In this document: in pieces, positions 4,100 through 63,841 of the stretch | How positions within the stretch are numbered: the first letter of the stretch is position 1 | Layout: every line of letters starts with the position of its first letter | IMG/VR virus record: IMGVR_UViG_3300019886_000004 | Coordinates: 83,917-147,916 of that record | Origin: a virus | Strand: one strand, 5' to 3' | Length of the DNA stretch: 64,000 nt | Notes under the pieces: generated by a model | The model's database searches: none | Told to the model about the DNA's origin: nothing | Seen by the model: the letters and a program-made list of their open reading frames with translations, nothing else | Program-made: the position numbers and the translations under genes

Positions 4100-4657
4100 T
4101 TAGACTTGCGTTATCTTCATTTCTTCATCAATATTTAAACTATATGTACTACATGTGTGTTTATAGTTATTTCGTCTATTTTTAAATGAAGACATTGATT
4201 GTAATCCTAGATTTTTAACACATTTAAGTATTATTGGCTGTTCAACATCAGAAATAATGAAATCAACAGAGCTATAATACATTATATTACATATTGATTC
4301 TACCAGGTTTAAAACCTCTCTAAACATTTGTGTTGATTGTTCTGTGGTAATACTAATGGAATCTAACCCACTATGTATCATTGTATAAGAATATATGTCA
4401 TGAATTATAAGTTTTCCACAACAACTAGGATATTCTACTATGCTGAATCCCAAAATATTATATTCAGACTTAGTTAGTATAGAAAACGAAACAGGACCTT
4501 TGTTACCTATGGTTATCCTACTAATTGGACGAATCATACTATTAAATATATCATCCTCATCAGAATAAATCAAAGATTTTGATCTAGATACAAGTATTAA
4601 GTCTTTTATATTTAATATTTTACTAATATTATTCTTAAAGTCTAATATGCATCCCAT
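4100..4657 (-). CDS. GNAT-like protein with a Cys-Cys-Gly motif, 185 aa
   Basis: Distantly GNAT-like rather than a clear acetyltransferase. A central strand segment reads VEYPSCCGKLIIHDIYSY, matching the position of the CCG/CCA strand in three other proteins of this window (22743-23237, 5489-5998, 24469-25005). The last two also show an acetyl-CoA loop, but that loop is not obvious here. The start overlaps the end of the COOH-NH2 ligase by 16 nt, so it is coupled to the peptide-chemistry cluster. It could be an inactive or binding-only relative. Confidence 0.5.
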   Translation of the reverse strand: MGCILDFKNNISKILNIKDLILVSRSKSLIYSDEDDIFNSMIRPISRITIGNKGPVSFSILTKSEYNILGFSIVEYPSCCGKLIIHDIYSYTMIHSGLDSISITTEQSTQMFREVLNLVESICNIMYYSSVDFIISDVEQPIILKCVKNLGLQSMSSFKNRRNNYKHTCSTYSLNIDEEMKITQV

Positions 4658-5508
4658 ACATCTGTAAGTTCTTTTTCCTTAATTAAGACTAGTATACCAA
4701 ACTCATCACATATTTTACCAGCAAGTTCTTTATTACTGGAATTAATTGCCTCAACAATATCTATTGACATTTCATTAATCTTATCCATTCCATGTTCATT
4801 ATAATAGTCAAACATTTGATTGATTTGATTAAAAATGTACTCAACATATTCTCTATCTTCAACCCAGAAATTAGAAAGTGTTCTAGCTTCAAAACCCCTT
4901 GATTCACTCCATTCACACAACCTCATTTCTCCAGCCTTACCATATAGTTGTCTCCTTCTTTCATCGCTATCTAAAAATAGGCAAGGTATTGTCACAAAAG
5001 TATCAAAAACTTTCATTAAATCAATGGAATTATTTACATCAGCTCCTTCAAAGCTGAAATGAAGATGACCTCCGCACACCCTCAAATTAGTATCTAATAG
5101 ATTACAAGAAGGATTCATTTCTCCATCCAACCAAGCATTATATGAAGGACTACATCCAGCCACCTTTGCTTCTGGATGCTCTAGTTGATCTTCTGTAAAT
5201 TCTGCTGAAGGACAACAAGTTATTTTTAACTTTTCTTCCTTGGCATATTTACTTAATATGTAACTCTTAATATACTCAAGATTCTCCAAAAATTCCTGGC
5301 TACCATCTAATTTTACTGGCGGCACATTACATTCTTGTAATACACCATCATACTGTAAGCAACATCCCTTTCTAGGAAGTTGTTCTGGAAATTTCTTAGT
5401 TCCGCTATTAAAGGGTATTGCAGATATAAATTTTCCTTCATCATTAGTTAAAAATAGTTCAAAATCAGAACCTATTAGTACTGTTTCCTTATTTACTTTC
5501 ATTTTCAT
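4642..5508 (-). CDS. Amidoligase, COOH-NH2 ligase type 2 family
   Basis: Predicted to join a carboxylate to an amine using ATP, as in the glutamine-synthetase/glutamate-cysteine-ligase fold. Signature elements in order: IGSDFELFL (Asp 15, Glu 17), CCLQYDGVLQECNVPPV (50-65), GGHLHFSF (146-153), the Arg-rich RRRQLYGKAGEMR (184-196) and GFEARTLSNFW (205-215). These are the metal-, ATP- and substrate-binding features of the phage COOH-NH2 ligase family. The length of 288 is normal. It overlaps both neighbours (GNAT-like genes). Substrate is unknown; cell-wall peptide or protein side chains have been suggested for the family. Confidence 0.85.
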   Translation of the reverse strand: MKMKVNKETVLIGSDFELFLTNDEGKFISAIPFNSGTKKFPEQLPRKGCCLQYDGVLQECNVPPVKLDGSQEFLENLEYIKSYILSKYAKEEKLKITCCPSAEFTEDQLEHPEAKVAGCSPSYNAWLDGEMNPSCNLLDTNLRVCGGHLHFSFEGADVNNSIDLMKVFDTFVTIPCLFLDSDERRRQLYGKAGEMRLCEWSESRGFEARTLSNFWVEDREYVEYIFNQINQMFDYYNEHGMDKINEMSIDIVEAINSSNKELAGKICDEFGILVLIKEKELTDVWDAY

Positions 5509-5998
5509 TCAGATTTAATAGCCAAATATTTAAAGTATTTCCAGTTTTTGCATTAATAAACTCAAGGCTTTTTAACCAACCTTGTTTTTCAAATATCTTA
5601 ACTTGATATTCATTATTTTTCTTATCTGCACCTTGCAATACACCATATCCATAATAGGAAGAAAAGTCAGACATGAACTTTGTTGCAATAGAACCAATTC
5701 CTTTATTTCTAAAGTTCTTAGATACAAGAAGATTGCTTCCAACAATTATACCACAACAATTATACATATCTTTTAAATCAAAAGTAACTATAGTTAATTT
5801 ATTATAGTCTACTTTAAATATTAAGTTACATTGACCTTTTCCTATTTCTTCAGGATTATATTGATTAAAGAATTCTTCCAGGGTATACTGTACCCCGGAA
5901 GAATTTTCGTAAACCTTTATTTCAATCTGTTGTTCCTTACATCCTATAATTTTAGATATATCTGTTCTAAACTTGGACTGAATTTCTTTCGTTTTCAT
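5489..5998 (-). CDS. GNAT-family N-acetyltransferase with a Cys-Cys-Gly motif
   Basis: Probably transfers an acetyl group to an amine, perhaps on the product of the adjacent ligases. The GNAT fold is visible: NCCGIIVGSNLLVSKNFRNK (central strand), then RNKGIGSIATKF, the Q/RxxGxG/A acetyl-CoA loop, then a helix and YGVLQGADKKN with a typical C-terminal Gly-Trp and strand. It starts MKTKEIxxK, as does its paralogue at 24469-25005. It overlaps the class I amidotransferase upstream by 32 nt and the COOH-NH2 ligase downstream by 20 nt. Confidence 0.75.
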   Translation of the reverse strand: MKTKEIQSKFRTDISKIIGCKEQQIEIKVYENSSGVQYTLEEFFNQYNPEEIGKGQCNLIFKVDYNKLTIVTFDLKDMYNCCGIIVGSNLLVSKNFRNKGIGSIATKFMSDFSSYYGYGVLQGADKKNNEYQVKIFEKQGWLKSLEFINAKTGNTLNIWLLNLNENESK

Positions 5999-6695
5999 GT
6001 TTGTAATTTGGAGACTTTTTTATTAAGTTTGTAATAAGATATCTTGCTAGCAAATTATAGTCTTCCTCTGGATGAAATTGACAAGCGGCTATCGGAAGAG
6101 TTTTATGTTGAAATACTTCTGCAATGTCATCCTTTGCAGTATATGCAATTAATTCTAGTGGCTCAGGTAACTCATCCTTTCTAACACCTTGATGGTGAAG
6201 TGAACAACATTTCATTTTTTTACTTTTAGAATTCTTTAATAAAGATGTTTCTAATATAGTAAATTTCGGAGTGAATGTAAGATCATTAACTAATTCTCCT
6301 CTATTTTCGGAATCACTATATCCATGCGTTCCAAGGTCTATATTTTGTATTAGTTTGCCACCAAAATGTACATTAATCATTTGGAAACCTAAACAGATTC
6401 CGAATACTGGTATTCCCGCATCAATATATTTAGGTAAATTAACTTTAGCAAAATGTTCTTTGAATGGATCTGGATCACTATTAAAATATCCTGGAACAGC
6501 CTCATAATTACTTGGTAAAGTATCCTTACCTCCTGGCATTATAATTAAATCTAAATCATTATCAATACCCATTTTTGGAGTTAGAATTCTAACATCTCCA
6601 AACACTTTGAAGAAGTGTAAATAAGATTTTGCTACACCAAAAGATAATTCTCCTTGACTCCAACCCGGTATTCCAATTTTAGGAACGTATTTCAT
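5967..6695 (-). CDS. Class I glutamine amidotransferase / gamma-glutamyl hydrolase-like (first copy)
   Basis: The fold hydrolyses gamma-glutamyl amide bonds through a Cys-His-Glu triad. Visible here: GGKDTLPSNY (55-64), nucleophile elbow FGICLGFQMIN with Cys 101, and CQFHPEED with His 208 and Glu 210. The form resembles PuuD-type gamma-glutamyl-GABA hydrolases, which act alone, rather than ammonia-supplying domains. A ligase neighbour suggests it trims or recycles gamma-glutamyl bonds, or releases ammonia. An 18-nt gap separates it from a second, divergent copy. The physiological substrate is inferred. Confidence 0.85.
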   Translation of the reverse strand: MKYVPKIGIPGWSQGELSFGVAKSYLHFFKVFGDVRILTPKMGIDNDLDLIIMPGGKDTLPSNYEAVPGYFNSDPDPFKEHFAKVNLPKYIDAGIPVFGICLGFQMINVHFGGKLIQNIDLGTHGYSDSENRGELVNDLTFTPKFTILETSLLKNSKSKKMKCCSLHHQGVRKDELPEPLELIAYTAKDDIAEVFQHKTLPIAACQFHPEEDYNLLARYLITNLIKKSPNYKHENERNSVQV

Positions 6696-6713
6696 ATTAA
6701 TTCATTTAAAATT

Positions 6714-7373
6714 TTATAATTCATTATTAAAAAACTTCACTAAAGTCTTTTTAGTCCAATCCATTACTGGTTCAAATTGACTAGATTTATGCATCATTTC
6801 CGGATGGAATTGAAACCCGATTGCACTAATTTTAGGAAAATAAATCGACTCAATTTCTTTAAAATTCCAAGGAAGTAAGATTGATTTATCCTTTGGACCT
6901 AAATATCTATTAGACCTTCTCTTACTACTCCAAGCTAATACTTTATAGTTCCTTGGATCCTTAATTGTATAAGGATTGATCATTTGATGATGTATACTAT
7001 TTGTATTTACAGAAACACCATCAAAAGTTGTTATTGTATGGCTGCTTCCACTATGACCACTAACGTCTTGAATCAACTTACCACCCGCCATTGCACAAAT
7101 AAATTGAATACCGCGACATATACCCAGCATCTTCTTACCAAGTTTTATACCTTCCATAAAGTCTTCTTTTTCTATCTTCTCCTTTTGTGGACTAGTCCAG
7201 GTCCTGTCACTTGCTTCTTCTCCATAGGTGCTTGGATCTACATCAGCTCCTCCCCCAAAAATTATTACATCTGCCTCTTCTATATTTCTAGTATGTACAA
7301 ATCCTAAATCCTGTAAGAAATTTCCATTATTTGCTCCACACGCAGACGTGAAATACTTATTTAATTTCTCCAT
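6714..7373 (-). CDS. Class I glutamine amidotransferase / gamma-glutamyl hydrolase-like (second copy)
   Basis: Same fold as its downstream neighbour but diverged: FGGGADVDPSTYGE (39-52), nucleophile LGICRGIQFI with Cys 86, a Ser/His-rich GHSGSSHT, SIHHQMI, and GFQFHPEMM with His 190 and Glu 192, so a full triad is present. Two intact, non-identical class I domains side by side suggest two different amide bonds or substrates. Its start overlaps the unknown gene upstream by 17 nt. Confidence 0.85.
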   Translation of the reverse strand: MEKLNKYFTSACGANNGNFLQDLGFVHTRNIEEADVIIFGGGADVDPSTYGEEASDRTWTSPQKEKIEKEDFMEGIKLGKKMLGICRGIQFICAMAGGKLIQDVSGHSGSSHTITTFDGVSVNTNSIHHQMINPYTIKDPRNYKVLAWSSKRRSNRYLGPKDKSILLPWNFKEIESIYFPKISAIGFQFHPEMMHKSSQFEPVMDWTKKTLVKFFNNEL

Positions 7374-8178
7374 AAAGTCTTATTAAGTCGTTTCCTTCTA
7401 TTCTTTTTTGAAAGTCTGAAATCTTTAAATTTGAATTAAATCTTGTTTGAAATAGTTTTCCAAGATTTCCATCTTTTTGGTTTTTAATCAACACATCAAA
7501 CTCTTGCTTACTTAACAATTTACTAATGAAAGTTTCTCTATTTTCAACCCTAAGTAAGGAGAACGTTTCGTTAAATCCATGATTTCCTGCAAAATAATAG
7601 TGAGCCATTTGAAGTAATTCAAAGTCTTCAATCATTTTTGCATTGATACCATTTATAGCTTTTAAATTGACAAATCTACAAAAGTTCTTAACTACTTGAT
7701 CATAATGGTCAGAAAATAAATATCTAACCATGCAATAAGCACAATAATTTCTTAATTGATTTTCATGAGAATTTTCTTTTATTTTTATTTTAAATGCTTC
7801 CCATTTATCTTCAATTATAAAACTACCCATGTCTAATTTCAATTCGTTCTCATTTTGCCATCCTTTCACTGATGTAAAATTCGTTCCAATCTCACTAGAA
7901 GTTTTATTACCTAAGTATTTTACTTCGCAAAAGAAATTAGATGTTAAGTCTATCCAATAATTAAAGAAACTTTTATTTCTGGCTTGCCTTATTAACCAGT
8001 CACTTGGATAATAAAATTTAATCTTTCCATTCTTAACCTTGTATTTATCATTGTTTATATCAAAAGTCATTTTAATTATTTGAGAACAATGTGTTACCAT
8101 TTTCTTAATTACGATTTGATCGTCATCATCGTAAATTATGAAAAATCCATAACTATTTCTATTATTAATTGTCATCAT
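7357..8178 (-). CDS. Protein of unknown function in the amidoligase cluster, 273 aa
   Basis: Not recognised. The N-terminal half (1-120) looks beta-rich; the C-terminal half is helical with a Cys/Tyr-rich stretch (NYCAYCMVRYLF, about 145-156). No membrane segment. It is coupled to the amidoligase upstream by a 4-nt ATGA overlap and to the amidotransferase downstream by a 17-nt overlap, so it is likely a working member of the pathway. A second ATG directly after the first may be the real start. Confidence 0.7.
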   Translation of the reverse strand: MMTINNRNSYGFFIIYDDDDQIVIKKMVTHCSQIIKMTFDINNDKYKVKNGKIKFYYPSDWLIRQARNKSFFNYWIDLTSNFFCEVKYLGNKTSSEIGTNFTSVKGWQNENELKLDMGSFIIEDKWEAFKIKIKENSHENQLRNYCAYCMVRYLFSDHYDQVVKNFCRFVNLKAINGINAKMIEDFELLQMAHYYFAGNHGFNETFSLLRVENRETFISKLLSKQEFDVLIKNQKDGNLGKLFQTRFNSNLKISDFQKRIEGNDLIRLYGEIK

Positions 8179-9743
8179 TTGATTTCCATATTATTGTGCT
8201 TAAAATTAAAATTAGGATCATCATCAAACCACTTCGATTCAACAGTTTTGTAATTTTTATAAGATCCGTCTTTATTAAAAAATGTTTCATACCTCATCTT
8301 GTAATACTCCATTATATAATTTGTGTACTTTTCTCCTAAATTTTCAAGTAATACCTCTCTTAACGTAATGGACTTTGCAGTTAAGCAAGTTTTCACATTC
8401 TCAGCATATTTAAGAATGGAAGCACAAGTCAACATCCAAATTAATATTTTAGTTGAATTCACACTTCCTTCAGCGCAACGAAATTCTAGAGTTCCAATTT
8501 TATTAAAATATAAATTTAGAAAATTAACCCAAAAATATCGAGATTCTTTTTGCCACTTCTCACCAGTTATAGCATGATAAACTGTTTTAGTAGAATAGAT
8601 ATTCTTTAACCACTTATCATAAAACATTTTTTTACCATCTACAACAACACTGGTTCTTATCAATTCCGGATCTCCATGTATAGCAGCTAAACTTTTTCCA
8701 TTATTTAACCAAGTATATATTTTATTGAATTCATTGACAACACATTCATGGAATTTTTCCTCTGAATTTTGTTTGAAGATGAGATCATATTTTACATCAA
8801 GATCACCTAGTGGTTTACAGTATATTTTACCATCTGATTTTATACTATTAAATCTACTATATGGAAAATATTTAACCATTTCACCTTGAAGTAAATAACC
8901 TAATCTATACATTGATAAAGTAAATAATTTATCTTTTCTGACTTTTCCGAAGTGGAAATGCACTGAACAATAATTATTTACTTCACACCTTTTGGTTAGT
9001 TCCTTGCAGAACTTTTTAATTACTTCTATACCCTTTGCACCACTCATCGGCATGGTTACCATCTCGATTCCCTCTCCATTATCACTCCTTAAAGATCCGT
9101 CCTTTAAAGCTTTTATCCCGTACTTATTTCTTATTCTTCTAGGAATAAAACCATTTATGACTTCAGCTTCCATTCCAAAACTATAATCACCTACAAACTT
9201 AGCTAATCTCTTAGAATCAGCTGATACTTTAATTTCTAGTTTTGCATACACTTCTTCTAACTGTTTCTTTCTTTCAGGATCAGCTTCTAAGTTATAACTC
9301 TTAGATCTCTCAACATTTGGAATATGTTTCTTATTAAACCATTCTTTTATATCTTTATCAGTTATAAAAGACTTTTCATAAAATATTCCATCATAAATAG
9401 ATTCAATGAATGAAAGCTTTTCTGCTAGTTCTTCATTTAATATATATATAAAGGAACCTATTCTTTTATCCTTAGCTGTCACGTATAAATCATTATCGCA
9501 AAACCAACCCTCTTCCCCATTCTCATTTATAATACCCTTAATTAATGCAGTATTTGCTTTCAGCACATATTTTTTAGAATAGTTATCATAAATTATTTTA
9601 TCAGTGGATGTAATTCTATACCATTGATCGTCTTCCATTTTAAAACAAGCCTCATTTTCCTTGTAATACTTATCAAGTATTTTATGAGCGCTATCTTTTG
9701 GTATTAGATTACCTAAATAATCCTTTACAAGTTTCTTGCTCAT
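8175..9743 (-). CDS. Amidoligase (Amidoligase_2-like), 522 aa with N-terminal extension
   Basis: A second, distinct carboxylate-amine ligase of the glutamine-synthetase-like superfamily. The catalytic core starts at FGMEAEV (189-195, Glu 192 and Glu 194), then KDGSLR (214-219), GIEMVTMPMSG (225-235) and CSVHFHFG (259-266), with a late FRCAEGSVN. That is the family order: acidic strand, DGSL, EhvSPP-like strand, H-x-H strand. Residues 1-185 form an extra N-terminal domain of unknown role. It differs from the COOH-NH2 ligase type 2 gene 3 kb away, so the cluster holds two separate amide-forming activities. Confidence 0.8.
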   Translation of the reverse strand: MSKKLVKDYLGNLIPKDSAHKILDKYYKENEACFKMEDDQWYRITSTDKIIYDNYSKKYVLKANTALIKGIINENGEEGWFCDNDLYVTAKDKRIGSFIYILNEELAEKLSFIESIYDGIFYEKSFITDKDIKEWFNKKHIPNVERSKSYNLEADPERKKQLEEVYAKLEIKVSADSKRLAKFVGDYSFGMEAEVINGFIPRRIRNKYGIKALKDGSLRSDNGEGIEMVTMPMSGAKGIEVIKKFCKELTKRCEVNNYCSVHFHFGKVRKDKLFTLSMYRLGYLLQGEMVKYFPYSRFNSIKSDGKIYCKPLGDLDVKYDLIFKQNSEEKFHECVVNEFNKIYTWLNNGKSLAAIHGDPELIRTSVVVDGKKMFYDKWLKNIYSTKTVYHAITGEKWQKESRYFWVNFLNLYFNKIGTLEFRCAEGSVNSTKILIWMLTCASILKYAENVKTCLTAKSITLREVLLENLGEKYTNYIMEYYKMRYETFFNKDGSYKNYKTVESKWFDDDPNFNFKHNNMEIK

Positions 9744-9757
9744 TGATTTTAATTTAA

Positions 9758-12220
9758 TTATTGTAGTATCTTACTGATATACATTATACTTCCTGCTAAA
9801 GATACATTTAATTTATTAAATCTTTCAGTCCTTAAATTTGTCTCAGTCTTATCCATTCTGCCTTTGATTTCTTTAACTGATTCAAGTAACTCTTCTAATT
9901 CGGATAGAAAAGATGACTCATAATATTCAGCATCTAATACTTCTGCTTCTGGTTCTACTACAATCTCTTTGGAATTTTCTCTTACACATTCATTTTCACT
10001 AATCTGTAAGTCACCACAATCTCTCATAAAATTATGCCATTCTCTATATGTAGAATGTGCTTTTGCAGAAAGATCTTTTGGATCAGACTCAAGTGCATAT
10101 AATAGTTCACTTTTACTTATTCTTTCTACAGTATTTAAAGATAGTAAAACCGCCTCATAGAAATCATATAATTCTTTATCTGAATTATTAACAACCCATG
10201 AAGTTTTTAAGTCATCTAATATCTCTTCTTTAGCCTCATGAATGTCATTTGCAAAATTAGGACTCTTATAAAGAATATTACAACACTTTATACTATTTAT
10301 TATATCATCTTCTGTAAATATATTCTGATTCTGTTCATGTATTTGTATCTTTTCCTTAGTAGTTAAATCAGTACTTATGTGCATATTGTGATTTGTCATA
10401 TTGGATATGTCTTCATCTTTTACTTTTGTTTTAATCAATGAGGTTATTTTCTCCATATCCTTTAGGAACTGCTTACCACTAAACATACTTACTTCAGCTT
10501 CTTTTCTTAGATCTTTAAGCATTACTTTACTTACAACAAGGTAATTTAAACCTATTCTCATAATTAATTCAAAGAAATATTTCTTTAATGAATCACTAGT
10601 ATTCACTCTCCATAAATCTCTTCTAGTAATCGTATAATAGTAATTAGGATTGTCAGATTCTTCAGTCTTAAACTTATCTATTAACCAAGCTCTTGTTGTA
10701 ACTTCAGATTCAATAGAAGTTAAATCATCATTATCAGCATCCACAGAGACTTCTTTCTTTCTAAATCCTATATTATCACATATTACTTTTTTAGTGATTT
10801 TTGTCCATTTACATCTAAATATTAATTTAAATTCTTCATCAGATAAAAACGGGGAAAAGCTAAGAGTATCTCCTCTTTTCTTAAGAGAAGAAGTATAATG
10901 ATTATCTAATATCCAACCTTCTTCTTCATCTATAAGAGTTAATACCGGATAACTAAAAAACTCTACAAATTCAGATACACGAATAGATTTAAACTTATCA
11001 AGACTAAATTTATCATGTTGGTCTTTAACTCTTTCAAAAACAGTATCATATGCTTTCTCAGATAAACATTTATAGCCACAAATAAAGAACATTGGTTCCA
11101 TGTTAAGTTTTACTGCTTCCAGTTCACTTTTCATTTTACCAATATCAGTTATAAAGTTTTTACCTTCCAAAGGATGACCATTTCTGTAATACCTTTCATT
11201 TATAGTGTACACTTTATTACCTCTATTGTCATGGTTTTTACTTTCATTTGGTCTATTCTTTATAAGTATAACTTCATCTTTTTTGGATGTCATTTCTATA
11301 AATGACTCTCCTCCTTGATTCTGCCATGTTTCATAGTCTGTATTGTAGTGTTTTCCTTTTTTATAACCTATTCTATTTCCTATCGGGTATGTCACTATAG
11401 GTTTAAGAGGTTTTCTATCAACTATCTTATCATAAGTAATTTTACCTTCTACTATCTTGTATAAAAAGTTAGGTTTGAAATATTTAAGTTCATTTTGTGC
11501 TGCTCCTATTGCAAGTAATGGTTCTTCCATTGATGATATATACATTTGATCCGGAGCAATATTCCAAAGATATAATGGACGATCTGGATCTTTATATATC
11601 ATCAATGTATTTTTTTCCAGTGGATGAAAGAATGCTAACGTTGCCCATCCATCATAAAGCTCCAGCGCTTCACGATAATTCTCTTCACCCAGTTTAACCA
11701 TAGCTTTAGCCAACATTTGAGTGTCAGAATTGGTATTAGTTTTAAATTCTATATCCCATCTGTTAGCTAATAGTTCTGTATTAGATAAGGTTCCATTCAT
11801 TGCAAGAATTAAGTCATAGTCTTCTTTTTCTGTGTCATTTTCATAAATACCAAAAGGATGAGCTAATTCTTTTGAATATCTTAACCCAGAACTTGCCTTT
11901 CTAGCATGTGCAACAATGGTGAAATTATCATCTTCTGGAGTTATAATTAAAGGATTTTTTTGTATAAATTTCATTACTTTTTCTGTATCCTTAATTATTT
12001 TATTGTTTACTGCCCATCCAGTACTATCTTCACCTCTTTCTTGATTATACATCATAATCATCTTTATCTTGTCTGGGTCAGCAGGTTTCGAACCTGAATA
12101 AGCCGTGATTCCGCAGCTTAATATACTTCGATCTATATTTAATCCAAATTTCTTTGAAATCAAAGAAAATAAGGAGTTTAAAATCCATATTAAAACCATT
12201 ACTAACATTAAGATTTCCAT
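9758..12220 (-). CDS. Class II glutamine amidotransferase (Ntn hydrolase) with N-terminal propeptide and long C-terminal region
   Basis: The N-terminal domain is a GlmS/PurF-type glutaminase that would release ammonia from glutamine. Key features: CGITAYSG with Cys 36, RGEDSTGW (62-69), AHARKAS (104-110), HPFG (121-124), NGTLSN (142-147) and SDTQML (165-170). The nucleophile must be N-terminal to work, so 35 residues would have to be cleaved off; part of that propeptide (about 3-22) is a hydrophobic segment that could anchor the precursor. Residues from about 270 to 820 match nothing I recognise and hold no obvious synthetase domain. It is the largest cluster gene, between the amidoligase and the ATP-grasp unit. 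Confidence 0.85.
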   Translation of the reverse strand: MEILMLVMVLIWILNSLFSLISKKFGLNIDRSILSCGITAYSGSKPADPDKIKMIMMYNQERGEDSTGWAVNNKIIKDTEKVMKFIQKNPLIITPEDDNFTIVAHARKASSGLRYSKELAHPFGIYENDTEKEDYDLILAMNGTLSNTELLANRWDIEFKTNTNSDTQMLAKAMVKLGEENYREALELYDGWATLAFFHPLEKNTLMIYKDPDRPLYLWNIAPDQMYISSMEEPLLAIGAAQNELKYFKPNFLYKIVEGKITYDKIVDRKPLKPIVTYPIGNRIGYKKGKHYNTDYETWQNQGGESFIEMTSKKDEVILIKNRPNESKNHDNRGNKVYTINERYYRNGHPLEGKNFITDIGKMKSELEAVKLNMEPMFFICGYKCLSEKAYDTVFERVKDQHDKFSLDKFKSIRVSEFVEFFSYPVLTLIDEEEGWILDNHYTSSLKKRGDTLSFSPFLSDEEFKLIFRCKWTKITKKVICDNIGFRKKEVSVDADNDDLTSIESEVTTRAWLIDKFKTEESDNPNYYYTITRRDLWRVNTSDSLKKYFFELIMRIGLNYLVVSKVMLKDLRKEAEVSMFSGKQFLKDMEKITSLIKTKVKDEDISNMTNHNMHISTDLTTKEKIQIHEQNQNIFTEDDIINSIKCCNILYKSPNFANDIHEAKEEILDDLKTSWVVNNSDKELYDFYEAVLLSLNTVERISKSELLYALESDPKDLSAKAHSTYREWHNFMRDCGDLQISENECVRENSKEIVVEPEAEVLDAEYYESSFLSELEELLESVKEIKGRMDKTETNLRTERFNKLNVSLAGSIMYISKILQ

Positions 12221-12240
12221 ATCTTTTCTAGTTTTTTTTA

Positions 12241-12963
12241 TTAAATTGTCTCTGCTAATTGAGCTGTTTCCTGTTTTTTATAATCTTTATAATTACATAT
12301 ACCAGAATAGTTATGTATATTACTTTGATTAGTATAATCTAAATACTTCTGCCTATAATCTAATATTCCATTCTCTATATCTTTTACTATTTCAGCTGAC
12401 TTTTTTAAATACATTTGATCATGTGGAGAAATGAACTTTTCAGGTTTATCAAAATATTTAACAATACTTTCATCACCTTCATATTTAAATCCTAATCGTA
12501 GAAACATGAAAAATGCACTTATAAGATATGGAATCTCTGTCCATTTTCTATCAAATGTCAAGATAATGTGAAATTTTTCTTCGCATAACTCAGCAATTGA
12601 TAAGTTAAAATTATTTTTTCTTTCTATTTTATTTAGTAAAGATAAAATAGAGTCAACTTGTTGTTGAGTAATGGTTTCCTTCACATGGGTTATCCTTTGT
12701 GATAATAGAATAGCAAGTGTGACATTATCCCTATCTAAAATACCTTTATCTTCGCCAACATGCCAACTAAAACCATACTGACTAATAACATTATTTCCGG
12801 TATATTTAACCCAAAATACGTCACTAAAATAATCTTTACATTTACAAAACGGAGTCATTGTTTCTCCACTTTCCTTGTTAATTAAGGCAAATTTTACTTC
12901 AGTTTGACCATGACCACTCTCAATTAAATGAAATTTTGCACTAACATTATCTATTATTTTCAT
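12241..12963 (-). CDS. Protein of unknown function coupled to the ATP-grasp ligase, 240 aa
   Basis: Not recognised. The N-terminal part (about 1-75) looks beta-rich with CKCKDYF and HVGEDKGILDRD; the rest is mainly helical and ends in a hydrophilic tail. No membrane segment or known catalytic triad. A 4-nt ATGA overlap with the ATP-grasp gene upstream argues for translational coupling and a linked role, for example substrate binding or a partner subunit; this is inference. Confidence 0.7.
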   Translation of the reverse strand: MKIIDNVSAKFHLIESGHGQTEVKFALINKESGETMTPFCKCKDYFSDVFWVKYTGNNVISQYGFSWHVGEDKGILDRDNVTLAILLSQRITHVKETITQQQVDSILSLLNKIERKNNFNLSIAELCEEKFHIILTFDRKWTEIPYLISAFFMFLRLGFKYEGDESIVKYFDKPEKFISPHDQMYLKKSAEIVKDIENGILDYRQKYLDYTNQSNIHNYSGICNYKDYKKQETAQLAETI

Positions 12964-13850
12964 AAAGAATATTTACGCTGTATAATTTTGGGTAACTCTT
13001 CAGTATATTTTTTTAAAGTTCCTTCACCAAAAGATGGGGCAGAACAAGACTCTATTAATATATATCTCGCCTTCTTATCTTTACTTTCTTTAACGGAGGT
13101 ACATTTAATATCAAATCCTAAAACATCAGCACCTAGAGCTTTTACTGCCTTCTTACAATCCTCTACCATCTCATTCCAATTCTCTGGTTTATTAAATTTT
13201 GGATTGGTTTCTACAAACCAGCTACAATTATCATCATGTCTTTGAAAACGATCTTCCTTTGGAGTATTTTCCTTAAGCATTTTTCTGCAAGTGTAGAAAT
13301 ACCCTTCCTCTGTTACATGAATTCTATACTCAACAGAATAATTTTTGTATTCTTCAACAATATAATTTTCCAAAGATTTTGTCTTTTCTTTTAAAAATAC
13401 ATCTAGTTGTTCTTTAGTCTTTACTAGAGTATTTCCAACTCCTCTACTTCCCCATCTATTTTTAATAATAAGCCAAGAATCTTTATCCTTGATAAAATCT
13501 AAATTTGCTAGGAATTTATCCCATGATATTTTATCAGTAGTTGCTTTAGCTAAGTGAATCCAAGGTGCATGTTTAACTTCAGATCTATCAAACGCTTCTT
13601 TCATTAGTTTTTTATCAGCACTATTCTTTATAGATTCTACACTATTAATTTCAAACTCAAAATCACTATTAGTTGTAGATCCATGTCTATAAACTGCTTT
13701 CACACCTTTTATTAGTATGGAATTTCTTAATGGTGATATACTTGGATGTCTTGAAAGAATCCTTAAATAAAAATGTGTAGGTTTCTTAATAGACTTAATT
13801 TCTTTCTTTGCAGTTTTTGCTAACTTTTTTTCTTTAATAGTGTTGTTCAT
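12960..13850 (-). CDS. ATP-grasp ligase (RimK/peptide-ligase-like)
   Basis: ATP-grasp enzymes activate a carboxylate as acyl phosphate and join it to an amine or thiol. Visible landmarks: IIKNRWGSRGVGN (128-140, first lysine and glycine-rich loop), NYIVEEY (162-168, adenine-binding hinge), EYRIHV (174-179), TCRKML (187-192), FDIKC with Asp 247 and LIESCSAPSF with Glu 267. The usual E-x-N metal motif reads E-S-C here, so the Asn is replaced; activity may be changed or another residue may help. The N-terminus is Lys-rich. It overlaps both neighbours. Confidence 0.8.
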   Translation of the reverse strand: MNNTIKEKKLAKTAKKEIKSIKKPTHFYLRILSRHPSISPLRNSILIKGVKAVYRHGSTTNSDFEFEINSVESIKNSADKKLMKEAFDRSEVKHAPWIHLAKATTDKISWDKFLANLDFIKDKDSWLIIKNRWGSRGVGNTLVKTKEQLDVFLKEKTKSLENYIVEEYKNYSVEYRIHVTEEGYFYTCRKMLKENTPKEDRFQRHDDNCSWFVETNPKFNKPENWNEMVEDCKKAVKALGADVLGFDIKCTSVKESKDKKARYILIESCSAPSFGEGTLKKYTEELPKIIQRKYSL

Positions 13851-14256
13851 TTTCTACTTTTTTTGTTTTTTCAATATTATTAAGTAATGATACCCAATCT
13901 CCTGATTCAACTAAATGACTTTCATTCACCTTTCCAGCATATGGAAATATTTTGTAATAATGTTCATCTATTTTTATATCATCTTCATAAAAATTAGAAG
14001 ATATTTCCATTCTATACACACAATCAAACACCTCTTGGTTTATCTCAAATAGATCCACTACTATACTTTTACTTCTATCTGAATCTTTTATACCTGGATA
14101 TTGACCAAGTATATACATTTCATATCCAAAAAGTTTTATCGTCTTTTTATAGTGCATTGAATCCTTACCAAAAGATTGACACATTCTTATATAATTATAC
14201 ATAGGTCTTCTTAGGGATCCATAGAATGCACATTTGATCATTTTATTGTCCATCAT
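13834..14256 (-). CDS. Gamma-glutamylcyclotransferase-like (AIG2/GGCT fold)
   Basis: The family releases amino acids from gamma-glutamyl amides by forming 5-oxoproline. The signature FYGSLRRPMYNY (11-22) is the YGSLR...N substrate-binding loop, and VYRMEISSNFYEDD carries the expected acidic residue and Tyr of the later strand. At 140 residues it has the normal length. It overlaps the ATP-grasp gene by 17 nt. In this setting it would be the trimming partner of a gamma-glutamyl or related amide-forming pathway. Confidence 0.75.
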   Translation of the reverse strand: MMDNKMIKCAFYGSLRRPMYNYIRMCQSFGKDSMHYKKTIKLFGYEMYILGQYPGIKDSDRSKSIVVDLFEINQEVFDCVYRMEISSNFYEDDIKIDEHYYKIFPYAGKVNESHLVESGDWVSLLNNIEKTKKVENEQHY

Positions 14257-14593
14257 AAATTTCTTTTATTTCTCCACTTTCTGTATATTTATATATATTA
14301 GAAAGTATTTTATAAGTATGTGGAAATACCGTTTCTCTGGTACCATCATTCCATATCATGTAAAGCTTGTCTTTTTCATTTGGATTTACAAACATATATT
14401 TACATAATATTTCTTTTTTTTCTTTTTTGGTGTACCACACGTGGTATATGTAATCCTGAAAAGCCTGCATCATTTCAGCATTAAGTTCTTCAGAAGTCAT
14501 ATTCTGCACATCATCTATTATGTCTAGATTTTCTATGTACTCACCATAACCATCAAATACACATAGAAGTACTTTCTGTTTTTCACATATCAT
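14243..14593 (-). CDS. Small acidic protein of unknown function, 116 aa
   Basis: Not recognised. It is a soluble protein with an N-terminal beta-strand (KVLLCVFDGYG), an acidic helix and aromatic-rich strands. It is joined to the primase gene by a 4-nt ATGA overlap on its upstream side and overlaps the cyclotransferase by 14 nt downstream, linking the replication and peptide-chemistry blocks into one transcript. Confidence 0.65.
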   Translation of the reverse strand: MICEKQKVLLCVFDGYGEYIENLDIIDDVQNMTSEELNAEMMQAFQDYIYHVWYTKKEKKEILCKYMFVNPNEKDKLYMIWNDGTRETVFPHTYKILSNIYKYTESGEIKEIYDGQ

Positions 14594-15576
14594 TTCTCAT
14601 TTATTTTCTTATTTATCAGCTCACTATATAGCAATCTTAGCTTCTCCAGTGGAAAAGCCTTGTTGTTATCAGCTTGATCTTTTTTATATTTCTGATGAAC
14701 ATAGGGTATACCATACACTTTCTCATATCTTCTCATAGCTTTTAATCCAGCTTCATCATTATCTAACATACTTAATACAAACTCATATTTTGATTTTAAC
14801 CAGTCTATTCTATCTTTAGGTATTAAAGTATTCTCTGAAGATGGAGCGACATATTCGCAACTAAGTTTTATAACATCCATTGCACATATATCTTTTAGTC
14901 CAGAAATAATTAAACATATATTATATTTTTGTTTTAGTTGCTCAGAACCTATTAAATAACTTGTGTCTATGTTTATATACTTTATCTTTGGTAAATTTGG
15001 TTGATATAACTGGTAAATTCCTTTCTCATTACTAAAAAATCCATATATACGTCCTCTAAATTCAAATGATTCTTCTCCTTTTTTTATGTTATATTCTGGA
15101 ACTTTTCTTATCTGAAATTTATTTAACGTTGTTAAGTCTATCTTGGATGTATCCCAAAAATCTAAGTCTTCACTTTTAAAGTAGTCAGTTACTATAGTAT
15201 ATTCAGGTTTAGAGACACTGCGAAACACTACGTCTTCCTCGTAATCACAACCTGATGATAAAAAAGTTTCATAGTCTCTTATTATCATACCAATTGATTG
15301 ACCTTCTGTTTTATTATAATGAAAGGCTACAAACCTTATTATATTTCCTCCTTGTCCTTGAGAAAAATCCCTCCAAAAATACTTTTCATTTTTATAAAAA
15401 AAGCAAAGTGATGGATTGGAATCTCTATTAACCACAGATTTCATCTTTATTATCCGACCATCAAATGGTTGACTTATTTTGTTGCCAGTTAAGTTTTTGT
15501 AGTAATGTTTATAGACCCAGCTCTCAGGAACATCAGATATATCACCAATAATATCACTTACGTCATATGCTACCAT
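14590..15576 (-). CDS. DNA primase, DnaG/Toprim type
   Basis: Makes RNA primers for phage replication. The N-terminal part has SNPSLCFFYKNEKYFWRDF followed by GQGGNIIRFV, the degenerate zinc-domain pattern of DnaG-like primases. The C-terminal part is a Toprim domain: ICLIISGLKDICAMDV, then APSSENTLIP, then LSMLDNDEAGLKAM with the DxD metal pair. The Toprim acidic residue normally near SG.KD is not obvious (Leu in its place). The 328-residue length fits a phage primase without a fused helicase; the DnaB-like gene is separate at 17.9-19.0 kb. Confidence 0.8.
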   Translation of the reverse strand: MVAYDVSDIIGDISDVPESWVYKHYYKNLTGNKISQPFDGRIIKMKSVVNRDSNPSLCFFYKNEKYFWRDFSQGQGGNIIRFVAFHYNKTEGQSIGMIIRDYETFLSSGCDYEEDVVFRSVSKPEYTIVTDYFKSEDLDFWDTSKIDLTTLNKFQIRKVPEYNIKKGEESFEFRGRIYGFFSNEKGIYQLYQPNLPKIKYINIDTSYLIGSEQLKQKYNICLIISGLKDICAMDVIKLSCEYVAPSSENTLIPKDRIDWLKSKYEFVLSMLDNDEAGLKAMRRYEKVYGIPYVHQKYKKDQADNNKAFPLEKLRLLYSELINKKINEK

Positions 15577-23244: not shown

Positions 23245-24279
23245 TTATTTAAAAGAATTTATTAATTGTCTCCTTAGTAGATTTACTTTAAGTAAGTCAT
23301 ACTTTCTTTTAACATACTCATGTAATCTCTCCCCGTCATCTAAAACTAAATTCATATTCTCCATTAGTGTTCTTGCCTTTGCAAACCAATCGCTTGGTTT
23401 ATCGCAGAAATATATTCCACTATTTTCCATTTCTTCATCTTCTAGATATGGAAATAATCTACTTGCCATTACAGGAGTTTTCATACAACCAGCTTCAATT
23501 ATCTTTAAGTTTGACTTAAAGTAATTAAACTGATTATGTTCCAGTGGAGCAAGAGCTACATCAGTGTAATTATAATGTTCCATATATCTATTTAGAGATA
23601 ATGCATCTCTAGTAGAATAACTTGGACTAATCTTCATCACATCATTCATTTCATGAAGAGCTTTCTCCTTATAGTTACTATTAAAACCTGCTAATATAAA
23701 CTTAGTCTTTATTTTAAAGTTTACATTCATATTAACCATAGTGAAAAAATCTTTTATAGACTCTAAGTCATATTGATGACTTGGTCCTCCAGAATACATA
23801 AATCTAAGTCGGCTTGCCTCCGTTTTCTCTGATTTAAACTGTTCATGACCAATTGGTAATGCGTTTGGTATAACTATACACTTTTTATTAATATCGCTTA
23901 CCCTTCTAAATAATCTCTGGTTAGTTACTGTAACTATATCTGCATTGGTAATAGATTTTAAAATAAGATCTGCTATTTTATTTTTAGTCCAAGTCTCATA
24001 AAGATAATGATGTTCATATAGCTCCCAAATATCATCTATATCTACCCACATTTTAAATCCATACCTTTTCTTCATTTCCAGTAGAATATCTAAATCTACA
24101 GTTGGATGTCGATTAAAAATAACAAGATCTGTATTCTTAAACTCACCAGTAGTATATTGCTCATCATCAGTTTTATACTCTATGTGTTCACCAGACTCTA
24201 GTGGTAGATAACGAAAAGGGTTGTAAATCCTATGATAATCACTTGCGCTTTTAGGTCGGTGAAGTAATAGAATGTTCAT
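23245..24279 (-). CDS. Glycosyltransferase, GT4-like (GT-B fold)
   Basis: Likely transfers a sugar from an activated donor to DNA, protein or a surface glycan. A Rossmann-type N-terminus (NILLLHRPKSASDYHRI) precedes WVDIDDIWEL, VIPNALP, a RFMYSGGPSHQYDLE strand-turn and, in the donor site, DVALAPLE followed by FKSNLKIIEAGCMKTPVMAS, which carries the acidic donor-binding residue pattern. At 344 residues it has the normal GT4 length. It shares a TAATG with the 59-residue gene before it. The acceptor is not shown. Confidence 0.8.
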   Translation of the reverse strand: MNILLLHRPKSASDYHRIYNPFRYLPLESGEHIEYKTDDEQYTTGEFKNTDLVIFNRHPTVDLDILLEMKKRYGFKMWVDIDDIWELYEHHYLYETWTKNKIADLILKSITNADIVTVTNQRLFRRVSDINKKCIVIPNALPIGHEQFKSEKTEASRLRFMYSGGPSHQYDLESIKDFFTMVNMNVNFKIKTKFILAGFNSNYKEKALHEMNDVMKISPSYSTRDALSLNRYMEHYNYTDVALAPLEHNQFNYFKSNLKIIEAGCMKTPVMASRLFPYLEDEEMENSGIYFCDKPSDWFAKARTLMENMNLVLDDGERLHEYVKRKYDLLKVNLLRRQLINSFK

Positions 24280-24468: not shown

Positions 24469-25005
24469 TTATAAGTTTATTACTGATAAGTAAACTCTAT
24501 TGTTCGTTCTTTTATTAATTACATTATATATGTCTTTCCATCCGTTTGTAGCTAGAAGTTTGCGCTGGTGTTCATTCTTATCCACATCTGTGCATAAAAG
24601 TAAAGAATACCCAAGTGCCCTTCCAATGTCCTGTCTTAGTGTATTTAAAGTAGTGGCTATTCTTTTATTCCTAAATTCTGTATCTACAAATGACTTACAA
24701 GAAACAAGTATGGCACAACAATGTGGCATTCTATAAAGTTCAAATGAAGAAACAAACCTATCCCTACAGCAAAGTATGTAATTACCTTCAGACCAATCAT
24801 TTAACTCTTGTTTTTTATTCTCATCAAAAATAGGTATAATTCCGGTAATCTTCTTTTCAAATTTACATAATCTCTCATAAAGACCAGTAGTAATGTGTGT
24901 ACTATAAGGAATTTTTGTTATGAAGAAAGATATATCTTCTGGTTTTACATTTAGTAACCCGGCAATTAATTTACAATATTTATCTAATATTTCTTTTGTT
25001 TTCAT
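24469..25005 (-). CDS. GNAT-family N-acetyltransferase-like with a Cys-Cys motif
   Basis: Paralogue of the gene at 5489-5998: both begin MKTKEI, both have the CC strand (MPHCCAILVSCK here) followed by FRNK-x-I-A/G in the acetyl-CoA loop position (FRNKRIATTLN; the usual second Gly is Ala). A helix and a YSLLLCTDVDKNEHQ strand follow, then a Gly-Trp pair. It is 178 residues long. It is divergent from the structured-RNA promoter that starts 10 nt away on the other strand. Confidence 0.65.
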   Translation of the reverse strand: MKTKEILDKYCKLIAGLLNVKPEDISFFITKIPYSTHITTGLYERLCKFEKKITGIIPIFDENKKQELNDWSEGNYILCCRDRFVSSFELYRMPHCCAILVSCKSFVDTEFRNKRIATTLNTLRQDIGRALGYSLLLCTDVDKNEHQRKLLATNGWKDIYNVINKRTNNRVYLSVINL

Positions 25006-26297: not shown

Positions 26298-27848
26298 ATG
26301 TCTACTAATTGTTCACCTATACAGAGTTGTATACCACAAGGTATTGTTAGTGACCCTTTATGTACTAGTCAAGCTTTATCGCTTGATTGTGACACAGGAG
26401 TACTTTCTCTTTCCAGTGCAAATTCTATTAACTTAGATTGTGCTGTTAAACTATTGGAGACAAAAACTATACTTAGTTCGGTAACACTCACTGGCACAAT
26501 ACTTCAAATAATTTATTTAGGAGAAGATAGTGTTCCACAAGCAAAAAACGTAGATTTAAGTTCAATAGCTGGCACAGGAGGTAATATTGGTGTTCAGAAT
26601 AGTAACTCTATTCTTTTACACAATGGTAATAATACCTTAACTGCTACTTTAAACATTGATCCTGCTTCTAGTCTTCCAATAAGTTCTAGTCCATCTGGTG
26701 TTTTATTCGGTTGTTGCCCGGAGACTGTTAATATTACTAATAATACTAACACAATTCAATTGGCAGCTACAGGTTCTGTAGGTCATATATTTACCGCTAA
26801 TTTGAAGTATCAAAGTTCTGGTACCATACTACTATCCGATAGCTCAAATGGTCTTAGCGCAGCTGTAAAGTACTCTACAGATGCTAATAACGCTGTAGTA
26901 AGTGGTACAGATGGTGGAGTATATGTTGCATCTGCATCTTCTCAGTTAGCAAATCTTTCCAATAACGGATTTGTAACAACCGGATCTGCTGGTACCCTTT
27001 TAGTTGGATCAGATTCTAAATTATATAGAATACCAGATCCTATTGCTGAAAGTCAAATAATTGGCAATAATACCAATACTGTTGCTTTAACAGTAAATGG
27101 ACCCAATAATCACACAATTCAAGCTGGTGTTAGATATACTAATACTAATAGCGCTTTAATAAGTGAAACAGGCAGTGGTCTACAAGTAGATGTTAAATTA
27201 GATACTGTCACTCCTGGCAATGTTGGTTTTACTGAAACAATCAATGGTTTGGTTGGAAACATAACCGAAAGTTCGATACTTGGAGTTCAAAATTCAGTAG
27301 CTACTGTTCAGAATCCAATAACCAAGATATATGGTAATTTAAATAACGGTGCTGGTGGTTATGCTGTAGGTTTCCTAAGTCAATATGGATTGAAGACACC
27401 TAATTTCACAACTACACAAAGATTTGCCATACCAAGTACTGACTTGTATGACAGTCTTTTAGTATTTGATACTACTCTTAGACAATATTATTGGTATGAT
27501 GCTGTAACACCTGCTTGGATTCAAATTGGAGCAACTACGAGTCCTACTACACCAACTATTTACACGTGGTCTAATGCTGCAAATACTGGAAATTACACTA
27601 TAAATGCAGCTAATGCTATAAGACTTTCTGATTTAACAGGTCAAGCAAATAGAAATATAGTATTACCGGCATCTCCTACTACTATACAACAGTTGCTTAT
27701 AATAAAAAATGTTAATTCAAGTGGTTTCAATTGGACATTTACAGGAACCACTGTGTTTGATATGAGCGATAGTGCGGTAACAACGTTATCAAATAACACC
27801 ACATACCAACTATCTTGGGATGGTGTAGCATATAATATAATAAATTAA
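26298..27848 (+). CDS. Tail-fibre-like protein, 516 aa
   Basis: A Ser/Thr/Asn/Gly-rich beta-structured protein made of repeated units with a pattern of an SI.L...G.xGH strand pair followed by a GLxV turn, as in Bacteroidota phage fibres. The N-terminus has a Cys-rich stretch ([22 protein letters not shown]) and the C-terminus ends in an aromatic-rich domain (YYWYD...W). It shares its design with the 453-residue gene at 29675. No signal peptide. The stop and next ATG form TAATG. Confidence 0.65.
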
Positions 27849-29482
27849 TGAATAAACTATACTTATTTCTACTTTTTTTAATCTTTTCCTTTAGTGTAAA
27901 TGCTCAAGTAGGAAGAGATTTCTCTAATAGTATTAGTTTTTCTAGATGGGCTAAAGTTGGAGATGGTACCACAGATTACACAGGTGCATGGAATACTGCT
28001 ATTAATTATATTATTTCTCATGATAAAGTTCTTGAGATACCAGAAGGAACTTATAATCTGGCTGGAATTTCAGATTTAGCTGGTATTTTTGGTAATCCGG
28101 GTAGATTAAGAATACATGGTAGAGGACCATCCTCTATTTTGCTTGTTCCAGCTAAGACTTCTGCTCTTATAAATATTGCCAGCTCAGCTATTACAGCACT
28201 GGAAATAGATGGAATATACTTTAAAAGTACGCATGATACCACTAATGTTGGTAATGTTGCTTTATTGCTTCAAGGTACAGCTCCTAATTTAATAACCAAT
28301 GTAAAAATAGCAAATTGCATATTTGAAGGTTTTACAACGGCTATCATTGGTAAAGGAGTTAGAGGTTTAGAAATATGTCATAATACATTCAAATCTCCTA
28401 CTGGACATGACAATGCAACAACTACATCTAATCCAGCTATATTTATCCTTGCTGTGGACAACAATGCAACAGATTTAAATAAAAATTGGAATATTCATGA
28501 TAATTTCGTAGATGGTTATTCTGGAACGCTGTCCATTACTACTACTAAGACAGGTGGTCCAATGGATGGATTCTTCTATGGACATGTAAGTGGATTAAAT
28601 ATTAACAATAATACAGTTCTAAATACAGGTCAAGAAGCAATTTATCCAAAAGTTAACATTTCTATAATTGATTCTGGTGTAACTTCTATAAAAAATAATA
28701 TTATTTATTCATACATACCAACCGGAAGTAAGGATATGAACGGAGTGCTTATGAGATCTAATTACGCTATAAGAGCTGAGTCTCAACACTTATTAATAGA
28801 AGGTAATACCATACTAGGTGCAACAATCGGAATATGGTCTGATGCAACAAATGATGTCTTTCAATGCCGCGATTTAACAATAAAGGACAATCATATATTT
28901 TTTATAAGAGACACTACAAAAAGAGTACAGTATGGAACATATATTAGAGGAAATGCAAATGGATTTCGTTTTAAAAATGTTATAGTTAAAGGTAACATTT
29001 CTATTCTTGATAGTAGTTTTATATATAGTACATTTAGAAATATTGCATTAACATACGTAGATAGTGCTCAGGTTGAAGGCAATTCATTGAGTATTGTGAG
29101 GTTAACAAAATCAGGAGGAGGTACTCAAGGCATCTCTCTTTTATCTTCAGATAGTGCTTATATTGGAGTAAATATAATGAGAGGAGTAGATACTACCATA
29201 AACTCAGTTTCTTCTAGTTATGTAAATATACCTGTTGTAAGCGGAAGTGGAGGACCACCAACAGGATCTGCGGGTGGACGTCTTACTGGTACTTATCCAA
29301 ATCCATCTCTTGCTAATACAGCGGTAACTCCTGGAAGTTACACTAATGCAAATATAACGGTAGCACCAGATGGAACTATAAGCTCGGCAACTAATGGAAC
29401 TGGAGGAGGTGGACTACTTTCAACATCAGCTGGTCAGCAGTGGCACCTAACATTTGATTCTGGAACTACAACGTGGTATTAA
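27848..29482 (+). CDS. Exported parallel beta-helix (pectate-lyase-like) tailspike protein
   Basis: A 544-residue protein with a Sec signal peptide (residues 1-19, ending VNA before Gln). [16 protein letters not shown] followed by [12 protein letters not shown] is the start of the Pectate_lyase_3 fold that tailspike depolymerases use to cut surface glycans. Many N-x-I-x-x-N-x-I repeats form the helix (about 100-400). A fibre-like linker ([21 protein letters not shown]) and a C-terminal tip follow. A signal peptide is unusual for a virion protein that assembles in the cytoplasm. Confidence 0.75.
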
Positions 29483-29492
29483 AATATAAGAA

Positions 29493-29675
29493 ATGGCAGA
29501 TCATCGTTCTATTTTATTGTGGCTCGGATCTAGTTTTACAACAGTAATTGGACTTATAACAGTGAATGATTTAGCAATTATGGTTGGTATAGCTGCAGGA
29601 ATAGGTAGTTTAATATCAAGTGGAGTAAATATATACTTCAAATTTAAAAATAAAGGTAAAAAAGATATACAATAA
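29493..29675 (+). CDS. Small two-helix membrane protein, holin candidate, 60 aa
   Basis: Two hydrophobic helices (about 8-24 and 27-46) with a positively charged C-terminus (FKNKGKKDIQ), the shape of a small class II-like holin. It starts MADHRS, with a His-Arg-charged N-terminus. It lies between fibre genes rather than next to the lysozyme, and a second membrane protein (40288-40632) sits nearer the lysozyme, so which is the holin is open. Confidence 0.55.
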   Translation: MADHRSILLWLGSSFTTVIGLITVNDLAIMVGIAAGIGSLISSGVNIYFKFKNKGKKDIQ

Positions 29676-34359: not shown

Positions 34360-34367
34360 CAATTAGT

Positions 34368-35693: not shown

Positions 35694-35695
35694 TA

Positions 35696-47026: not shown

Positions 47027-47127
47027 TTTATTTTTGATAATTTTAGAACTTTTACCTATCAATAGGGTTCCAGCAATTCAATGCCTTTTTTCAATATAGA
47101 TTTCTCTATAAGGGGGCCATTATGTTA

Positions 47128-48328: not shown

Positions 48329-48329
48329 T

Positions 48330-63810: not shown

Positions 63811-63841
63811 ATTTTTATTTAAATTAGTTTGTAAATATAAG

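Follow-up and report, generated by a model that had tools for sequence, protein, structure and literature searches.

Gene Content and Organization of the Cassette

The stretch of DNA analyzed in this work (the window) corresponds to the final 64 kb of a viral contig of 147,916 bases (IMG/VR record IMGVR_UViG_3300019886_000004, positions 83,917 to 147,916) and harbors, from position 14256 down to position 4100, a cassette of amidoligase and associated genes, all located on the minus strand and oriented in a single direction. It is close to certain that this cassette is a member of the published phage amidoligase (“peptidoglycan modification”) cassette, reportedly described by Iyer 2009 and said to be named also by Hardies 2013. 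The cassette itself is not new in kind, being an expanded form of a known one; the new element is a 35-residue leader of the membrane type (12116..12220) that ends directly before the catalytic Cys36 of its class II amidotransferase-fold protein.

Following the direction of the genes, the cassette opens with a gamma-glutamyl cyclotransferase (GGCT/AIG2; 13834..14256, 140 aa) and continues with an ATP-grasp ligase (12960..13850, 296 aa), a 240-aa protein (12241..12963), the class II amidotransferase-fold protein (9758..12220, 820 aa), an Amidoligase_2-type, GS/GCS-like ligase (8175..9743, 522 aa), a 273-aa protein (7357..8178), two class I/peptidase C26 (PuuD-like) paralogs, b (6714..7373, 219 aa) and a (5967..6695, 242 aa), a possible GNAT acetyltransferase (5489..5998, 169 aa), a phiEco32-like COOH-NH2 ligase type 2 (4642..5508, 288 aa), and a small conserved protein (4100..4657, 185 aa). 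The first-pass annotation of this DNA had described a single direction with overlaps of 4–32 nt; the direction holds, and such overlaps occur at seven junctions, the other three being gaps of 14–20 nt. The cassette is located near replication genes, with a DNA primase adjoining it (14590..15576, minus strand; phrog_47, 2.9e-5) and a helicase at 17934. The nine cassette proteins tested gave no match to PADLOC anti-phage defence genes.

The Class II Protein and Its Leader

The class II glutamine amidotransferase fold proposed for the 820-aa protein is confirmed by the Pfam family PF13522 (GATase_6; 9e-12), by a Foldseek search with its model (GlmS glutaminase, 8.6e-13, and also PurF and EgtC), and by the invariance of C36, R107, N142, G143, and D166, which include the glutamine-binding Arg, the Asn-Gly, and the Asp of the Ntn fold. 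The fold resembles glutaminase domains as well as the gamma-glutamyl hydrolase EgtC, and the C-terminal two thirds of the protein gave no family match.

The feature that the first-pass annotation overlooked lies at the N-terminus. Class II amidotransferases have an N-terminal catalytic Cys, which is usually residue 2 of the translation product. In the window protein, 35 residues stand ahead of Cys36, and the codon before the TGC of this residue is AGC, which is no start; the leader consists of a hydrophobic helix (residues 2–24) and a basic linker, after which the catalytic Cys follows. The AlphaFold2 model contains the same helix, with a predicted local distance difference test (pLDDT) of ~93–95 over residues 1–20 and of ~70–77 over the linker, and a confident Ntn domain beginning at Cys36. 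A survey of class II homologs retrieved 33–34 distinct proteins (window's included) with a leader of 23–37 residues, composed of a hydrophobic stretch, a basic segment (FKPKxNxL in many of them), and then CG; each leader ends exactly at the Cys, and a start codon at position -1 was found in none of the 34 sequences. Strong N-terminal hydrophobicity characterizes 44 of 118 class II proteins, versus 0–3 proteins per family in nine others, and the last ten positions before the Cys hold 73 basic versus 10 acidic residues. When comparable, not near-identical leader pairs were examined, silent sites differed by 0.29–0.58 and amino-acid-changing sites by 0.05–0.25, a pattern that shows purifying selection on the leader in the pairs compared; two further pairs, nearly identical, differ at too few sites to be informative on selection.

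These data speak against some other explanations. The leader is not a misread Met-Cys start, since position -1 is not a start codon in any of the 34 sequences and the gene upstream generally stops near the leader start. It is not confined to one clade, either: mapping its presence or absence onto a tree of 84 domains requires 21 changes, and well-supported branches force 15 of them, which puts the gains or losses of the leader at no fewer than about 15. A very recent exchange is suggested by two sampled proteins (L023:7187 and L026:13540) whose domains are identical over the compared residues, the one with a leader and the other with an ATG-Cys start; we regard this pair as evidence of it. Lastly, a lipoprotein signal appears unlikely because the basic residues come after the hydrophobic part. 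The same arrangement, with the basic residues following the helix, predicts a cytoplasmic location of the enzyme domain. The leader may serve as a membrane anchor, as a propeptide that is inserted in the membrane and removed by a cut ahead of the Cys, or as both, which suggests a membrane-tethered pro-enzyme and would favor an envelope chemistry; tethering seems to be optional, rather than essential to the cassette, because leaderless forms occur in close kin.

The propeptides of PurF and glutamate synthase (GltS) are established and offer a precedent for a different explanation, which competes with the leader part of our reading and not with that of the cassette, namely, that the leader is a short self-cleaved propeptide with no membrane role, the mature enzyme being the same either way. 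The exact end of every leader at the Cys, the identical domains with either start, and the frequent switching (at least 15 changes) would fit this possibility. However, a simple propeptide would not need to combine a hydrophobic helix of membrane length with a basic linker after it, as 33–34 divergent sequences do, and we consider this explanation somewhat unlikely.

Ligases, Hydrolases, and Accessory Genes

The two amidoligases recognized in the first pass have been corroborated. The COOH-NH2 ligase type 2 matches PF14395 above cut-off (4.2e-10), in agreement with phrog_3815 (5e-52), and the Amidoligase_2-type enzyme matches PF12224 above cut-off (1.4e-7; 32 bits vs. a cut-off of 22, the genome-scan match of the same stretch being of 20.3 bits), in agreement with phrog_2443 (1e-22). 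Family alignments built with 75–106 sampled sequences per family revealed that the catalytic residues of both enzymes are retained; their loss from both ligases, which would have spoken against the first-pass reading, is thus not seen. Residues D15, E17, E59, R143, H148, R185, R196, and E207 of the COOH-NH2 ligase are conserved across the family and present in the window, whereas E192, E194, D215, E227, H262, H264, E420, and R422 of Amidoligase_2 are invariant in 76–77 aligned rows. On the basis of these alignments, the active-site residues are apparently largely intact across the cassette enzymes. The ATP-grasp assignment is sustained by phrog_2599 (2.5e-17), the Pfam match (0.0017) being below cut-off; the protein has a distant similarity, far below cut-off, to D-Ala-D-Ala ligases and is 41–42% identical to its homologs in phage cr108_1 and in an IMG/VR locus, L008 (3300011438_000022). 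Its metal-binding motif (residues 267–269) reads E-S-C in the window and E-x-N in most relatives; Cys occupies this position in 12 of 84 sequences, that of the window among them, and Ala in 4. A pattern scan of genome contigs retrieved no cellular relatives of the ATP-grasp protein.

The pair of genes read in the first pass as class I glutamine amidotransferases are indeed class I proteins, but the label that fits them best is peptidase C26 (PuuD-like), and the amidotransferase role is putative. Both paralogs retain a Cys-His-Glu triad (C101-H208-E210 in paralog a) and match the C26 profile above cut-off (PF07722, 4e-26 for paralog a and 9.5e-17 for paralog b). When profiles of the pair were compared with structures, the best PDB matches were Lin1909 and related proteins, with PuuD lower down, and the sub-threshold NCBIfam matches of paralog a include gamma-glutamyl-CDP-amidate hydrolase and PuuD models. 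Because of the C26 profile, the triad, and the Lin1909/PuuD matches, the two proteins resemble gamma-glutamyl hydrolases at least as much as amidotransferases, and gamma-glutamyl hydrolysis would be as likely as ammonia transfer. The GGCT/AIG2 assignment is confirmed by PF06094 (1.4e-10) and phrog_2520, and this protein retains the YGSL motif and Glu84 at the catalytic position.

Concerning the smaller genes, the GNAT-like nature attributed to the protein at 4100 is not borne out, as the latter has neither a GNAT match in Pfam nor PDB support; its positional counterpart in L008 (L008:14959-15393) reaches only E 0.055 with a GNAT profile. For the protein at 5489, the GNAT label finds a sub-threshold Pfam match (Acetyltransf_7, E 0.019) and no profile above cut-off, and the comparison with the PDB yielded no convincing match; the protein is similar to the product of L008:286-912. 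A paralog of it, far from the cassette (24469-25005, minus strand), likewise gives a sub-threshold GNAT match (0.0075), and the L008 counterpart of this paralog adjoins replication genes. The family of the 12241 protein was found in 15 loci, often adjoining the ATP-grasp gene, and has invariant residues C42, D44, G64, H217, and G221; its model is of low confidence (pLDDT 62) and gave no PDB fold match. The 7357 protein is recognizable only in L008, in the same position, and has no homologs in named phages.

Distribution of the Cassette in Other Phages

The cassette, whole or partial, is present in the isolate/named phages tf, SE131, cr108_1, QDWS535, Lbo-JY46, phi14:2, ECBP2, Slicky01, and HP1, and matches to the COOH-NH2 ligase were found in 306 INPHARED records. 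Alignment-based scans of IMG/VR viral contigs retrieved 80 and 35 loci, and gene neighborhoods were counted in those of at least 18 kb, 40 of them seeded on ATP-grasp and 24 on amidoligase. These counts are not natural frequencies, since the sampling took in some contigs twice and favored relatives of the window. The five core genes (COOH-NH2 ligase, Amidoligase_2, class II, ATP-grasp, and GGCT) are all found in 32/40 and 14/24 loci, respectively, and always share a strand when the set is complete (46 of 46 locus entries); 28/40 and 17/24 loci have a primase no more than 3 kb from a core gene. The most common order is primase-GGCT-ATP-grasp-C26a-C26b-COOH-NH2-class II-Amidoligase_2. The comparison of gene neighborhoods that the first-pass annotation had recommended has thus revealed a neighborhood conserved in dozens of viral loci, which excludes a chance grouping. 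The two traits by which this cassette had been set apart do not distinguish it, given that the published cassette ordinarily has both ligase types (tf, UFV-P2, HP1) and that two or more class I genes are common (18/40 and 14/24 loci).

L008 represents a near gene-for-gene counterpart of the window cassette, which keeps the order and possesses both C26 genes, a homolog of 7357, and the leader, with a protein identity of 23–44%; unlike the window, its GGCT gene is upstream of the primase, and the genes in the places of 12241, 5489, and 4100 hold the same positions, BLAST homology not being shown. In phi14:2 (Steigviridae), genes g037–g041 follow the order primase-GGCT-ATP-grasp-COOH-NH2 ligase-class II-Amidoligase_2, with RusA just beyond and a uracil-DNA glycosylase between the cassette and RusA. 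The phi14:2 class II protein likewise carries a hydrophobic leader, whereas the C26 genes and the counterparts of 7357, 12241, 5489, and 4100 are lacking from its cassette.

The Phage and Other Features of Its Genome

The remainder of the contig harbors terminase (TerL), portal, and capsid proteins matching PHROG families, and very large RNA polymerase proteins akin to those of the Cellulophaga phage phi14:2 (Crassvirales). The DnaB helicase, the primase, and a Sak4-like protein match phi14:2 and cr108_1, and a metallophosphoesterase and an IHF-like protein also match phi14:2 core genes. On these core-gene matches rests the label by which we call it a putative large crAss-like phage; no close nucleotide relatives were found in INPHARED. 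One open reading frame of 4049 residues (L130:2125-14274; contig 59125-71274) matches both the phi14:2 RNA polymerase catalytic protein and the adjoining virion protein, that is, two virion genes of the crAss-like type fused into one. At the contig end, another open reading frame (63250-63996, minus strand) starts with ~50 residues of Met-Ala/Met-Val repeats, which might be either true low complexity or an assembly effect.

Large tail-fibre-like genes occupy 26298-40266 (plus strand); those at 27848, 31036, 34368, and 35696 start with apparent export signal peptides, unusual in phage virion proteins, and the last one has PKD-type domains. A polysaccharide pyruvyl transferase and a glycosyltransferase-like gene (L128:899-1642; window 23245-24279) might be additional surface-modifying genes of the same phage. 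Three consecutive genes at 47120-49525 (minus strand), namely, a nicotinamide phosphoribosyltransferase-like one, a small one, and a phosphoribosyl pyrophosphate (PRPP) synthetase-like one, form a row resembling the NAD+-rebuilding pair of other phages. In SE131, Lbo-JY46, and Slicky01, too, the surroundings of the amidoligase cassette include PRPP synthetase and NAMPT/NAPRT genes, which may be a chance association.

Possible Function of the Cassette

Starting from what was computed, i.e., the gene families, the conserved catalytic residues, the conserved operon near replication genes, and the conserved and selected leader, we infer a membrane location and topology, a leader cleavage, an order of reactions, a product, and a benefit, as follows. 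The two GS/GCS-like ligases and the ATP-grasp ligase would form amide bonds in an acceptor, and the class II protein, the two C26 proteins, and GGCT might supply ammonia or remove gamma-glutamyl groups, since all four folds act on gamma-glutamyl amides, glutamine included. The leader would keep the class II enzyme on the cytoplasmic side of the inner membrane, and its cut before Cys36 would give a classical N-terminal-Cys enzyme. The acceptor might most likely be a membrane-linked envelope precursor, such as the stem peptide of peptidoglycan, whose change early in infection would lead to an altered envelope or to the exclusion of other phages. We assign to this envelope version of the cassette function, overall, a probability of roughly 0.45. 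It retains the building and trimming of a gamma-glutamyl or amide product postulated in the first pass, which is the best reading of the cassette and accords with earlier proposals (PMC5498523, PMC11945000); the acetylation step postulated together with them has little support.

Some points weigh against the envelope version: the activity of the cassette enzymes and their product are predictions; the leader is missing from approximately 60% of the class II homologs sampled, including one of the two identical L023/L026 domains; the cassette is usually embedded among replication genes, which a nucleic-acid role would explain too; and a hydrophobicity survey identified no further membrane protein in the window's cassette. 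A more elaborate form of the model, in which a membrane-docked complex edits amides, the class II protein is an anchored zymogen that cleavage before the Cys releases and activates, and phages swap the leader between anchored and soluble forms, appears to us quite unlikely.

It is possible to imagine that the product is instead a soluble gamma-glutamyl or peptide metabolite, acting as a helper of nitrogen metabolism or as an anti-defence molecule; in this case, the ligases would build a protected compound from which GGCT and C26 strip the gamma-glutamyl group, as in the butirosin, polyamine (Puu), and EgtA/EgtC pathways. Every hydrolase fold of the cassette acts on gamma-glutamyl amides, C26 resembles PuuD, the class II model resembles EgtC, and the sub-threshold match to gamma-glutamyl-CDP-amidate hydrolase points the same way, as does the nitrogen-metabolism role proposed for Phage-ZRK32 (PMC10945688), although the growth effect in that study is not linked to the cassette genes. 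Moreover, no carrier, efflux, or tailoring genes were seen except for the weak GNATs, and a membrane leader is at odds with a purely soluble pathway. A metabolite of this kind is, in our opinion, unlikely.

A peptide-tagging system, in which proteins of the host or phage would receive extra amino acids, is improbable: the ATP-grasp protein matched a phage family that bears the name ribosomal protein S6 glutaminyl transferase, and other phage ATP-grasp ligases are predicted to act on proteins (PMC4431377), but neither a tag precursor nor a peptidase partner was seen, and several gamma-glutamyl hydrolases suit a small-molecule or envelope chemistry better. Least probable of all is the hypermodification of DNA or nucleotides, which the primase, helicase, and dUTPase nearby, the frequency of a primase within 3 kb, and the replication genes adjoining the cassette in unrelated phages might suggest, but for which no hypermodification enzyme was found among the proteins scanned (a subset of the genes), the genes tested being an ordinary ThyX, a ribonucleotide reductase, and a dGTP/dATP diphosphohydrolase, and a membrane leader would not be expected. 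A PurZ-type modified-base pathway, considered because of this diphosphohydrolase, was rejected, as the contig has no PurZ. On the whole, the leader fits a membrane-linked envelope-precursor pathway, and fits less well a purely soluble or a DNA pathway.

The amidoligase cassette spans phages of E. coli, Pseudomonas, Salmonella, cyanobacteria, and Bacteroidota, and its product is unreported in the literature found. To our knowledge, the leader is the first positional clue, placing one cassette enzyme putatively at the inner membrane in many phages; it points to lipid-linked envelope precursors and renders the envelope, metabolite, and DNA ideas separable by experiment. If true, a switchable membrane leader ahead of the nucleophile of a class II amidotransferase fold would represent an unusual arrangement for activation.

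Comparison with Known Systems

The pairing of a GS/GCS-type ligase with a gamma-glutamyl hydrolase of the class II or C26 fold, as observed here, is also found in EgtA/EgtC (ergothioneine) and in PuuA/PuuD (Puu); these are cellular pathways with known products, and the likeness does not go beyond the fold/superfamily level.

Much closer is the peptidoglycan modification cassette of RIO-1/HP1, phiEco32, LUZ24/PaP3/tf, PA11, and CW02, with which the window shares the COOH-NH2 ligase type 2, Amidoligase_2, the class II protein, ATP-grasp, and GGCT, as well as the single direction and the location beside replication genes. According to the excerpts available of the papers cited here, which hold no report of an enzyme activity or product of the cassette, the latter was proposed to alter the host surface and to exclude other phages (PMC5498523), a proposal restated for LUZ24-like phages (PMC11945000; gene table in PMC3890496) and made also for the Sinorhizobium phage PhiM6 (PMC6256558); HP1 expresses the cassette genes immediately (PMC7082346), the authors of the OM43-phage study cite Iyer 2009 for the wall modification by phiEco32 (PMC10580990), and a role in nitrogen metabolism was proposed in the Phage-ZRK32 study (PMC10945688). 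With respect to the published cassette, that of the window has a different gene order and adds the two C26 paralogs, the genes at 7357 and 12241, the small GNAT-like genes, and a larger class II protein provided with a membrane-type leader.

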